The notes beneath the pieces were generated by a model. The model saw only the letters and a program-made list of their open reading frames with translations. It was not told the origin of the DNA and made no database searches. DNA of 51,800 nucleotides from Pyrodictiaceae archaeon (GTDB lineage Archaea > Thermoproteota > Thermoprotei_A > Sulfolobales > WANQ01), in the NCBI GenBank assembly GCA_015521735.1, contig WANQ01000035.1, forward strand, positions 1-51,800. Reading direction: 5' to 3'. Of this stretch, positions 24,967 to 40,025 are shown one piece after another. Numbering within the stretch: position 1 is the first letter of the stretch; the number at the start of each line of letters is the position of its first letter. The translations under genes were made by a program, and so were the position numbers.

Positions 24967-25111
24967 TATACTCTTACCTTGTACAGCATACCTCCTAGGA
25001 ATGGATTTCAGGGGAGCTCCTACTTATCTTGGTATGTTTAATATACAGGGTTTATATAGTGGTTGAGACTAAAAATAGTATCCATGTAGGTAAATACCTG
25101 GGGTAAGTGGT

Positions 25112-25303
25112 TTGCCTAAAAAACTAATTGATGGTGTGGCTAAGGAAGCTCTAGATAAGGCTCTACTTGAACTGGCTAGTAGCGAAGACTATGAAGTAGA
25201 CTTTGAACTAGTAAAGCCTGGGAAAGGAGTTGTAAGCAAGTTTGTTAGGTTAATGAGGGATGAAAGAGATAGTGTACTTAGAGACGTAGGGGTTCTAGAC
25301 TAG
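25112..25303 (+). CDS. Small acidic/basic protein of unknown function
   Basis: A 63-residue protein, probably helical at both ends (IDGVAKEALDKALLELASSE and SKFVRLMRDERDSVLRD), with no recognised family. It starts with TTG 25112. A 12-base palindrome aggtaaatacct at 25088-25099 and a TATA-like tttatata at about 25051-25058 lie upstream. It converges on the retropepsin-like gene with a 34-base gap. It is divergent from the radical SAM gene, whose promoter must lie in the same 145-base interval. Confidence 0.5.
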   Translation: MPKKLIDGVAKEALDKALLELASSEDYEVDFELVKPGKGVVSKFVRLMRDERDSVLRDVGVLD

Positions 25304-25337
25304 GATACATTGAATTCATGCTATTAGTGTGGTATGG

Positions 25338-25766
25338 TTATTTCCAGCGTCTAGGTGGTTCACTTCTCCTAACTCTTTCCTTAGGCTCCCATCTAAACCT
25401 CCACAATCCTTCTCCTGGATCCTCAAGAGCTATTTGGAGCTTACTTAATAGTTTATCGCTTAACAGTACTTCATCAGCTATTGGTGAGACTACGATGTCT
25501 GCTATGGTTTCTGGGCCTTCAACGTCTTCTGCTACTACTTTAACCTTGCATGCTCTAGGTGCTATCCAAACCTTTAATGGGCCACCAGCTGTTTCAAATT
25601 CTGATTCCTCCATATTAGGTGTTGGAGGCCATAGCCCTAGTTCCTCAGCTAGCCTTATAGGTACTAGTAGTTGTGGTGTTTCTGCTTCATAGCCACTATT
25701 AGCTAGTGCAGGGGTCTCAACAACCTTATTCTCTCTCATGACTCTTATTCTTACTCTCACTACCAT
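25338..25766 (-). CDS. Retropepsin-like (clan AA) protein with NSG in place of DSG/DTG, paralogue 1
   Basis: A 142-residue protein. The layout is that of a single retropepsin domain: an N-terminal strand, then PALANSGYEAETPQLLVP where retropepsins have a D(S/T)G active site, then AGGPLKVWI, and DEVLLSDKLLSKLQIAL, similar to the second hydrophobic-hydrophobic-Gly/Ser region. The catalytic Asp is Asn here, as in the paralogue at 39597 (about 45% identical by eye over the core), so proteolysis is doubtful. ATG 25766 is chosen by alignment with the paralogue; TTG 25799 is possible. A small gene overlaps its 5' end in another frame. Confidence 0.6.
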   Translation of the reverse strand: MVVRVRIRVMRENKVVETPALANSGYEAETPQLLVPIRLAEELGLWPPTPNMEESEFETAGGPLKVWIAPRACKVKVVAEDVEGPETIADIVVSPIADEVLLSDKLLSKLQIALEDPGEGLWRFRWEPKERVRRSEPPRRWK

Positions 25767-25848
25767 GGGTACTAAGCCTCTTAGCCTTAATCCTGCCAAT
25801 CCTAGTTCTATGATCTCTTATTAACCCAATAAACGCTTTCCTATCCAT
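25726..25848 (-). CDS. Small basic protein overlapping the retropepsin-like gene (copy 1)
   Basis: A 40-residue frame starting at ATG 25848 with DHRTRIGRIKAKRL in the middle, followed by a Ser/Lys/Glu tail. It overlaps the first 41 bases of the retropepsin-like gene in a +1 frame. A TATA-like atatataa lies upstream. The same arrangement, with a related motif and the same frame relation, occurs before the second retropepsin-like gene (39500-39643). That recurrence is the reason for calling it. Function is unknown. Confidence 0.45.
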   Translation of the reverse strand: MDRKAFIGLIRDHRTRIGRIKAKRLSTHGSESKNKSHERE

Positions 25849-25937
25849 ATGGTTTCTACACCTAGCCAAATTATATATTGAATGACTAGTGTTAATTAGG
25901 CTTAAACAAGTACCTAGGGCTAGAGTATTCTGGATGC

Positions 25938-38150: not shown

Positions 38151-39368
38151 TTAGGAAAGAGGTTTGATACGTCTTTTGTATCTTTTAGCCATGTCTACTA
38201 GTGATTCTACGTCTAGTGTCTTCAGTGTTGTCTCGGGTATTATGGATTGATCTGGTACTATTAGAATTTTCTCTGCTTCTTCAAATCTATTTAGCTTCTC
38301 CTCTATTCTACGTATTTCCTCTTTATCTAGCTTGTTCTTCCACTTCACTTCAGCTACTATTCTTATCTTATTGAATTCTACTAGTGCTATGTCTATTTCA
38401 GGTTCAAGTATTTTTACCGGTTTAAGCCCCATTAACTCTGCTAGTAGTCTCTCCATGAACCTCTCTATGAGTAATGGCATGTAGTTACGTACTATTTTTT
38501 CTATGTACTCCCATGTTAATGGGATGTCGAAGAAGCCGTACTTAGCGTTCATATAGTATTCTATTTCTGTTAACGGTGATATGTGTCTGTAGAAGCTTTT
38601 CCTCCTCTTACCCCATACTTCTACTCTTTCTATTAGCCCTGATTTAACTAGTATGTCTATGTACTTCGTTATATATGATGTACTGGAGCCTGGTATTACT
38701 CCTCTTGAGTAAAGATATGATGCTATTTCTGATAACTTGTTCTTACCAGCTGCTATTGCTTCAAGTATCATGTCGTATCGGCGTGTATGTACTTGGTCTT
38801 CTTCATCTAGTACTTCTCCTACTAGTGATTGCGCAAACTCTTTTCCCGATAATATTATGTCTTTGATTTTTCTACCTATTAGTGTTGGCTCCTGATAGAA
38901 TACTAGGTGTTCTATTAGTTCTCTACCACTCATAGGCCAATCAGTACTCAGTAACTCTACTGGTGATAGTAGTCCAACCATTCTTATAGAGAATAGTCCT
39001 TTAAGAGGAGCTTCTGGTCCCTCAGTGAACTTCCTATGGTAGTGCATTGTAGAAGTTATTAATACTAGGTTATCAGTACATAAGCCTGCTTGTAATACAT
39101 CGAATAGCTTGGGATCAGCTCTATGGAATTCATCGAGGATTATATTATCTTCTATTCTACAGATTCTCGTGAAAGCTCTAGTATCAAGTTCAAGATCTTC
39201 TACTGGATCATATATTGTTCCCCCCTTCCTAACAATATAGTAGTGGTAGTTTGCTAACACATATCTAGCATAGAATGTTTTACCTGTCTTCCTCCTACCA
39301 TATAGTAGTCTTCTACCACTAGTCTTCAAGAACTCTTCTAGCTTTGGTCTTCTTACTATGATACCCAT
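38151..39368 (-). CDS. P-loop ATPase with DUF234-like nuclease-type C-terminus
   Basis: A 405-residue protein of the archaeal ATPase-DUF234 type. Its P-loop domain is short: Walker A YGRRKTGKTF near residue 23-32 and Walker B NIILDEFHRAD. A winged helix follows (NKLSEIASYLYSRGV...YITKYIDILVKSGLIER). The C-terminal domain (about 270-405) contains EPEIDIALVEFNKIRIVAEVKWKN, which matches a PD-(D/E)xK nuclease core (Asp...Glu-x-Lys). The family is common in archaea and some members lie in mobile or defence regions; no role is established. Its promoter carries repeated GATAC elements. Confidence 0.85.
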   Translation of the reverse strand: MGIIVRRPKLEEFLKTSGRRLLYGRRKTGKTFYARYVLANYHYYIVRKGGTIYDPVEDLELDTRAFTRICRIEDNIILDEFHRADPKLFDVLQAGLCTDNLVLITSTMHYHRKFTEGPEAPLKGLFSIRMVGLLSPVELLSTDWPMSGRELIEHLVFYQEPTLIGRKIKDIILSGKEFAQSLVGEVLDEEDQVHTRRYDMILEAIAAGKNKLSEIASYLYSRGVIPGSSTSYITKYIDILVKSGLIERVEVWGKRRKSFYRHISPLTEIEYYMNAKYGFFDIPLTWEYIEKIVRNYMPLLIERFMERLLAELMGLKPVKILEPEIDIALVEFNKIRIVAEVKWKNKLDKEEIRRIEEKLNRFEEAEKILIVPDQSIIPETTLKTLDVESLVDMAKRYKRRIKPLS

Positions 39369-39402
39369 AGTATGATACCCTCAGTATGATACTGTCAGTA
39401 TC
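39369..39402 (-). promoter_or_regulatory. Operator-like repeats before the ATPase-DUF234 gene
   Basis: agtatgatac occurs at 39369-39378 and 39383-39392. The second copy overlaps the perfect inverted repeat gatact-gtc-agtatc (39388-39402). A minus-strand TATA-like cttaaaatac lies at about 39406-39415. The elements fill the space between TATA box and ATG (39368), where a repressor would act. Confidence 0.55.
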
Positions 39403-39499: not shown

Positions 39500-39643
39500 T
39501 TGAGCAATCATAGGTTTAAGGCAAGAATAGGCCATATATATCCATTAAGGAGGAGAATAGGCCATATATACCCGTTGAAAAAGCTAGGTGAAGTAATTGG
39601 CGGTAAGAGTAAAGTTGAAGATCAAAGCACTGAAGACAGGTAG
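39500..39643 (+). CDS. Small basic protein overlapping the retropepsin-like gene (copy 2)
   Basis: A 47-residue frame from TTG 39500 with NHRFKARIG near its start, a duplicated peptide RIGHIYPL, and a charged tail. It overlaps the first 47 bases of the retropepsin-like gene in the +1 frame. This is the same relation as the 25726-25848/25338-25766 pair, where the motif is DHRTRIGRI. A TATA-like ctttttatag lies at 39442-39451. It is called because the architecture occurs twice; function is unknown. Confidence 0.45.
   Translation: MSNHRFKARIGHIYPLRRRIGHIYPLKKLGEVIGGKSKVEDQSTEDR
39524..39577. repeat. 30-base period duplication encoding RIGHIYPL twice
   Basis: agaataggccatatata occurs at 39524-39540 and 39554-39570. 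Both units encode RIGHIYPL in the small gene, but the codons for Tyr, Pro and Leu differ (tat/tac, cca/ccg, tta/ttg). Silent differences only suggest the peptide has been kept. Confidence 0.75.
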
Positions 39644-40025
39644 AGAAGCTCTAACATCAGCACTAGTTAATTCCGGTTTCGAAGCAGAAACACCACAACT
39701 ACTTATTCCACGTAGGCTAGCCTTAGAGCTTGGCTTATGGCCTCCACCTGAAGAAGCCTTCATAGTTGAAGTTGGAACAGCTGGTGGACCAGTTAGAAAC
39801 TACCTAGTACCTAGTGCAGCTGAAGTATACGTTGTAACTAGGGATAGAATTGTAGGTCCTAGGAAATGCGATGTAATGATATCTAATATAGAATACGAAG
39901 TACTTATTAGCGATAAGCTAGGCGGTGAACTAGGAATAGTTATCTTAGACCTAAGAGGAAAGTGGAGATTCCATGATGAAGAAGATAGGGTAAGGAAAAC
40001 TGAGCCACCACAATACTGGTTATAG
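39597..40025 (+). CDS. Retropepsin-like (clan AA) protein with NSG in place of DSG/DTG, paralogue 2
   Basis: A 142-residue paralogue of 25338-25766. Shared stretches are ALVNSGFEAETPQLLIP, LGLWPP, TAGGP, EVLISDKL and the C-terminal RVRK-TEPP-W. The retropepsin active-site Asp is again Asn (Asn25). It starts with TTG 39597 after GGTGA with five-base spacing, within the small gene copy 2. Conservation of NSG in both copies argues for a non-protease role, such as binding. Confidence 0.6.
   Translation: MAVRVKLKIKALKTGREALTSALVNSGFEAETPQLLIPRRLALELGLWPPPEEAFIVEVGTAGGPVRNYLVPSAAEVYVVTRDRIVGPRKCDVMISNIEYEVLISDKLGGELGIVILDLRGKWRFHDEEDRVRKTEPPQYWL

Follow-up and report, generated by a model that had tools for sequence, protein, structure and literature searches.

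The retropepsins of clan AA, as exemplified by the HIV-1 protease, are single-domain proteins recognized by a beta-barrel fold with a flap hairpin and, as aspartic peptidases, by a catalytic Asp within the motif D[ST]G. The nearest sequence family to the proteins described here is TIGR03698 (clan_AA_DTGF), a group of prokaryotic aspartic proteases that we take to be AF_0612/COG5550-like. In the D25N HIV-1 protease, an engineered laboratory mutant, Asn takes the place of the catalytic Asp, and this protein binds peptides without cutting them, as in the complex with bound substrate peptides (PDB 2nxd). Toxin–antitoxin (TA) systems of type II, such as VapBC, consist of two co-transcribed and usually overlapping small genes from known toxin and antitoxin families, which are mobile, patchily distributed and present in multiple copies. 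A cis-acting leader peptide, in turn, is expected to be a conserved peptide encoded at a fixed distance from the start that it regulates. The first-pass annotation of the window, by which we mean the whole stretch of 51,800 nucleotides analysed here from a Pyrodictiaceae archaeon, proposed that a retropepsin-like gene preceded by an overlapping small gene is a conserved, previously unnoted and perhaps TA-like two-gene module. We likewise found no description of this pair in the open-access literature searched, and the matches in a 2009 survey of TA systems (PMC2701414) deal with Zn proteases and with paREP families.

The window contains two such pairs, and the coordinates and overlaps first reported for them proved to be correct. 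In pair 1, on the reverse strand, an open frame from an ATG at 25726–25848 encodes a basic protein of 40 aa (MDRKAFIGLIRDHRTRIGRIKAKRLSTHGSESKNKSHERE); an alternative TTG start at 25869 would extend it to 47 aa. The retropepsin-like gene 1 (25338–25766, reverse strand) encodes 142 aa from an ATG, and the two frames overlap by 41 bases (25726–25766). In pair 2 (39500–40025), on the forward strand, an open frame at 39500–39643 encodes a basic protein of 47 aa (MSNHRFKARIGHIYPLRRRIGHIYPLKKLGEVIGGKSKVEDQSTEDR) with a tandem RIGHIYPL repeat (39524–39547 and 39554–39577), and it overlaps by 47 bases (39597–39643), in the same relative frame as in pair 1, with the retropepsin-like gene 2 (39597–40025), which also encodes 142 aa and has a TTG start with AGGTGA upstream. 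Both larger proteins carry NSG in place of D[ST]G. The larger proteins are 47% identical, whereas the two small proteins were only weakly similar when aligned to each other (E = 0.012 in one single comparison), and because of this weak likeness the case for a repeated pair is thin on the window alone. The ATG of small gene 1 is preceded, at about 28 nt, by a TATA-like box (AATATATAAT; 25870–25880, reverse strand), a distance implying that the leader is very short or absent and that the small gene would be the first cistron. A 14-bp unit (TATGATACCCTCAG), possibly an operator, is present in 3.2 copies at 39357–39401, just upstream of an ATPase gene (38151–39368).

The members of the retropepsin-like family are 135–145 residues long. 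An AlphaFold model based upon 81 sequences had a mean pLDDT of 95.4 and a pTM of 0.88, and in Foldseek searches it matched the HIV-1 protease with a probability of 1.00 and a TM-score by target of approximately 0.70–0.75. Nearly all of the first 50 matches listed were HIV-1 proteases, the D25N–peptide complex 2nxd among them; no solved structure of a relative was found by sequence search. The model shows the beta-barrel and the flap-like hairpin, with a GG tip as read from its strands, and the protein thus shares both the fold and the single-domain size of the clan AA retropepsins. However, its sequence identity to them is only 12–17%, it has a small upstream gene, and it carries residues of its own, viz. 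D104, G120, W122 and R133, which are invariant, and the conserved E99 (gene 1 numbering). Additionally, Asn stands in place of the catalytic Asp in 79 of the 81 aligned sequences and Thr in the other two, and Asp was found there in none of them. Because the defining catalytic residue of clan AA is absent, the larger protein is, as judged from these alignments, a pseudoprotease that does not belong among the aspartic proteases, and an active enzyme of that kind was rejected on account of the Asn or Thr at this position. The absence of the Asp from every retropepsin copy had been overlooked in the first-pass annotation. Two close copies with Thr at the catalytic position, from two genomes of family f31 (L173 and L191), lack the small upstream gene.

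The relationship of these proteins to TIGR03698 is distant. Only two of 19 members of the family gave weak matches to it (best E = 6.5e-5), and gene 1 scored 12.6 bits (E = 0.13), where the curated cut-off is 57.35 bits. TIGR03698 genes occur in the same genomes as the module, but in the same phylum 25 of the 26 that were read keep the Asp, and a profile of the small protein matched upstream of none of these 26, which indicates that this small gene is a feature of the pseudoprotease family alone. The small partner accompanies the loss of the catalytic residue. In two genomes, genes for DTG-type, apparently active clan AA proteases lie near an Asn-type module (L146:543-732, G048:C73; and L015, G034:C39).

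When an alignment of 19 diverse members was used as the query, 97 of the 398 genomes sampled from the phylum of the window gave matches to the retropepsin-like family, as many as ten or more in a single genome. A single-sequence search of 59 order-level relatives gave matches in eight genomes, and the window's own genome has four copies. The family spans Thermoproteota and Bathyarchaeota-like lineages, its carriers including Caldivirga sp. MU80, Vulcanisaeta distributa, Bathyarchaeota, Nezhaarchaeota, Culexarchaeum, Methanodesulfokora, Ignisphaera and MAGs of Desulfurococcales. One bacterial member was also detected, in a Planctomycetota MAG from groundwater (L109); it has NSG and is without a recognizable small partner, and it may have arrived by transfer or have been binned wrongly. 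No relatives of the module were observed in the viral contigs, phages or plasmids searched, and an origin from any of these was dropped as a candidate.

A small ORF encoding a basic peptide of 25–50 residues is present just upstream of about 90 of the 94 Asn-type genes examined, a count for which 97 starts had enough upstream sequence, 80 of them passing a simple motif filter and the remainder being read by eye. Loss of the upstream frame from orthologous loci, which would have counted against a conserved module, is thus not what the relatives show. The peptides (e.g., MKKIFVGLIRDHKTRVGRIKACKGA, MSVKVGRIKYGSFAYVGRIRV and MVARIGRVGHIYIRRRRIGHIKML) contain one or usually two motifs of the form [KR][VI]G[RHKY][IMFY], mostly [KR][VI]G[RH]I, spaced about 10 residues apart. 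The motif HR..RIG earlier described as common to the two small proteins of the window was slightly misread, since the part conserved across relatives is [KR][IV]G[RH]I, mostly occurring as a pair, and the HR seen in copy 2 is incidental. Versions of the motif vary widely among clades (GRIR, GHIY, GYMR and GKYK), and in the basal classes the small protein has an extra N-terminal segment. In a 17-codon core compared across 23 loci, differences at codon positions 1, 2 and 3 were 0.16, 0.14 and 0.58, respectively; dN was about 0.14, against a dS that had reached saturation. These values mark the small ORF as a coding sequence under purifying selection.

The position of the small ORF relative to the larger gene provides further evidence. 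Its frame relative to the retropepsin is +2 in 80 loci, +1 in six and 0 in three, and the same peptide is kept in all three frames; in nearly all of the nine loci not in frame +2 the small ORF ends before the retropepsin gene. Among the +2 copies 11 different spacings between motif and gene were observed, every one of them frame-preserving. In about 79 of 89 copies the small ORF terminates within the larger gene, whereas some small ORFs stop up to 42 nt ahead of it, and the overlapping tail is absent from the copies that do not overlap. This tail is a run-on into the retropepsin gene, where frame +2 happens to be open across the VRVRVRI codons. As the overlap begins only downstream of the conserved motif, the similarity of the small proteins is not accounted for by the shared retropepsin coding sequence, an explanation that the first-pass annotation had named as fatal to its claim.

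Of 80 family genes, 54 had an upstream match to a profile of the small protein, as against none of 156 control genes (other genes from the same loci), although many of the 54 matched sequences, and none of the controls, had also been used to build the profile. Small gene 1 matched with E = 9.8e-16, its own sequence being part of the profile. Searched alone across the 398 genomes, the profile mostly found sites followed by a family retropepsin or its remains, with a few weak or contig-edge matches besides. The small proteins matched no significant family in Pfam, NCBIfam, PADLOC or PHROGs, and no DNA-binding domain was recognized in them; an SH3_7 match of small protein 2 (E = 3.4e-4 over 13 residues, under the cut-off) was set aside as spurious. 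The larger proteins also gave no match to a known TA, defence or phage family. In 73 of 89 copies the retropepsin start has Shine–Dalgarno-like words ahead of it, compared with 27–28 in control windows, and TATA-like words peak across copies at −40 to −30 of the start of the small gene. By these signals the two genes are predicted to be transcribed together, the small gene forming the first cistron of the message.

Pair 1 lies within an insert of about 970 bp (24967–25937) between nreA and a radical SAM (rSAM) gene, and this insert is absent from genomes of the same family. Elsewhere nreA and the rSAM gene are contiguous: they are separated by about 22 bp in two genomes of the same family (L203 and L204) and are adjacent in two of another family (L207 and L208). 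No convincing terminal repeats or target-site duplications were found at the insert. Within it there is also a remnant of a VapB antitoxin gene (25112–25303, forward strand), consisting of only the C-terminal part and lacking vapC, with 57% identity to a 90-aa ribbon-helix-helix (RHH) VapB that in L218 is followed by a PIN toxin ORF. The window's own genome has its four copies in four different clades, each of which also includes copies from other families, in a single-gene tree that is based upon few columns and partially resolved. Many copies elsewhere are decayed or frameshifted. These features show that the pair travels as one mobile unit. Among the HEPN matches listed, for observed and expected counts alike, HEPN genes were found by hand compilation within 2 kb of at least nine of 79 modules, where 1.2 would be expected. 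Recurrent neighbours of the module include HEPN, PaREP1-like (HEPN-RHH) and MNT-like ORFs, as in TA islands.

Our main reading, to which we assign a probability of roughly 55%, is that the pair forms a mobile TA-like module, in which an acidic pseudoprotease of the Asn type and its basic peptide partner act as a guardian or toxin–antitoxin-like unit. The small protein has a pI of about 11.4 and a net charge of about +7, and the pI of the retropepsin is about 5.2. The pseudoprotease, probably as a homodimer, would bind the basic peptide as a dedicated partner, most likely through its dead substrate cleft, the natural Asn making this cleft a holder of peptides as in the D25N HIV-1 protease. The latter is a laboratory mutant, whereas in the module the Asn is natural and phylum-wide and a candidate peptide ligand is encoded next door. 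One product would restrain the other, and either of the two could be the toxic member, if there is one. The distance matrices of the small protein and the retropepsin are correlated (Mantel r = 0.76; 0 of 2000 permutations), but such mirrored distances or trees are no proof of contact because linkage alone predicts them. In an AlphaFold model of a copy that is naturally in frame (L052, with its two stops read as Ser), the small part was disordered (pLDDT of about 42) and its docking on the monomer was unsupported, the model being without a second retropepsin subunit. The more specific proposal of a conflict module, in which the dead cleft holds the separately encoded basic peptide and release or loss of this partner leads to a toxic, antiviral or addictive effect on the cell, is tentative and we regard it as rather unlikely.

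The likeness to TA systems suggested by the first-pass annotation extends only to anatomy and to behaviour in the genome. As with VapBC, the small gene comes first, the frames overlap, and the module is bicistronic (by predicted transcription), multi-copy, patchy, inserted as a unit and often decayed, with HEPN genes and a vapB remnant in its neighbourhood. Unlike in type II systems, neither protein has a known toxin or antitoxin fold, and the charges, with a basic small protein and an acidic large one, are opposite to those in most such systems. A TA-like function is our leading guess from this genome behaviour. That the pair is a true TA system of defined polarity, with the pseudoprotease as toxin and the small basic protein as antitoxin or with these roles exchanged, is a possibility that we take seriously while placing it below an even chance. 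In addition to the shared anatomy, the enrichment of HEPN genes and the vapB remnant in the same insert as pair 1, it gains from the rarity of intact pseudoproteases without the small gene, the exceptions to which include two with Thr and one with Asp at the catalytic position. It is weakened by the absence of a nuclease, kinase or other toxin fold, by the inverted charges and by the lack of a recognized DNA-binding domain in the small protein. Many loci combine a broken retropepsin with an intact small ORF, which speaks against a small protein that is freely toxic; however, the larger gene is also the larger target for mutation, and the polarity of decay was dropped as a clue to the toxic gene.

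A complex without any role in conflict, i.e., a housekeeping assembly that binds peptides or nucleic acids and has been duplicated in some lineages, would fit the wide distribution in Thermoproteota and a basic peptide that could contact RNA or DNA. We consider it unlikely, as the family is patchy (eight of the 59 order-level relatives in the single-sequence search), its copies within one genome belong to scattered clades, many are pseudogenes, and pair 1 interrupts a conserved gene pair, behaviour that is characteristic of dispensable mobile units.

It is also quite improbable that the small ORF is a cis-acting leader peptide, i.e., a nascent-chain sensor or attenuator that controls the retropepsin start and has no role after its synthesis. 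The ORF is the first cistron, its stop codon lies inside the downstream gene, and the motif typically ends 13–28 nt before the downstream start, which a stalled ribosome could thus cover. However, while the peptide is conserved, its distance from the regulated start is not fixed, ranging from 1 to 88 nt between motif and start, with some ORFs ending up to 42 nt ahead of the gene. In addition, the motif is duplicated and differs widely between clades, and the extra N-terminal segment of the basal classes is as expected of a protein.

Much less probable is an active protease produced by maturation, in which the invariant Asn would be deamidated to Asp at the growth temperature to recreate a D[ST]G site, the small peptide serving as substrate or inhibitor. 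Rigid active-site loops usually slow deamidation, the Asn is also retained in the planctomycete copy from groundwater, two copies carry Thr, and Asp is never encoded directly. Against these points, the residue pairs involved are NS, NT and NG, the hosts are mostly thermophiles, and Asn-to-succinimide chemistry is documented in proteins of hyperthermophiles (PMC5052720, PMC13234242). Lastly, a chance origin of the small frame, from the upstream region together with the codon pattern of the retropepsin, has a negligible probability. The open +2 frame in the first retropepsin codons explains the alike tails, but an accident is contradicted by the motif outside the overlap, the purifying selection on it, the three frames that keep the peptide, and the absence of profile matches upstream of control genes (0/156) and TIGR03698 relatives (0/26).

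Returning to the reading of the pair as a mobile TA-like module, the conserved association of the two genes, with a small frame that purifying selection has maintained in Thermoproteota and Bathyarchaeota-like lineages, adds to the known proteins of these archaea a conserved small-protein family that is missing from the family libraries searched. About one fourth of the sampled genomes of the phylum carry the larger partner, and the results explain the multi-copy retropepsin-like genes, which annotators would call aspartic proteases although the catalytic residue is missing from them. With a natural "D25N" retropepsin found across a phylum and a peptide encoded alongside it, binding can be tested specifically and easily, and the module could reveal a new type of toxin–antitoxin or defence system in archaea, where such systems remain poorly charted.
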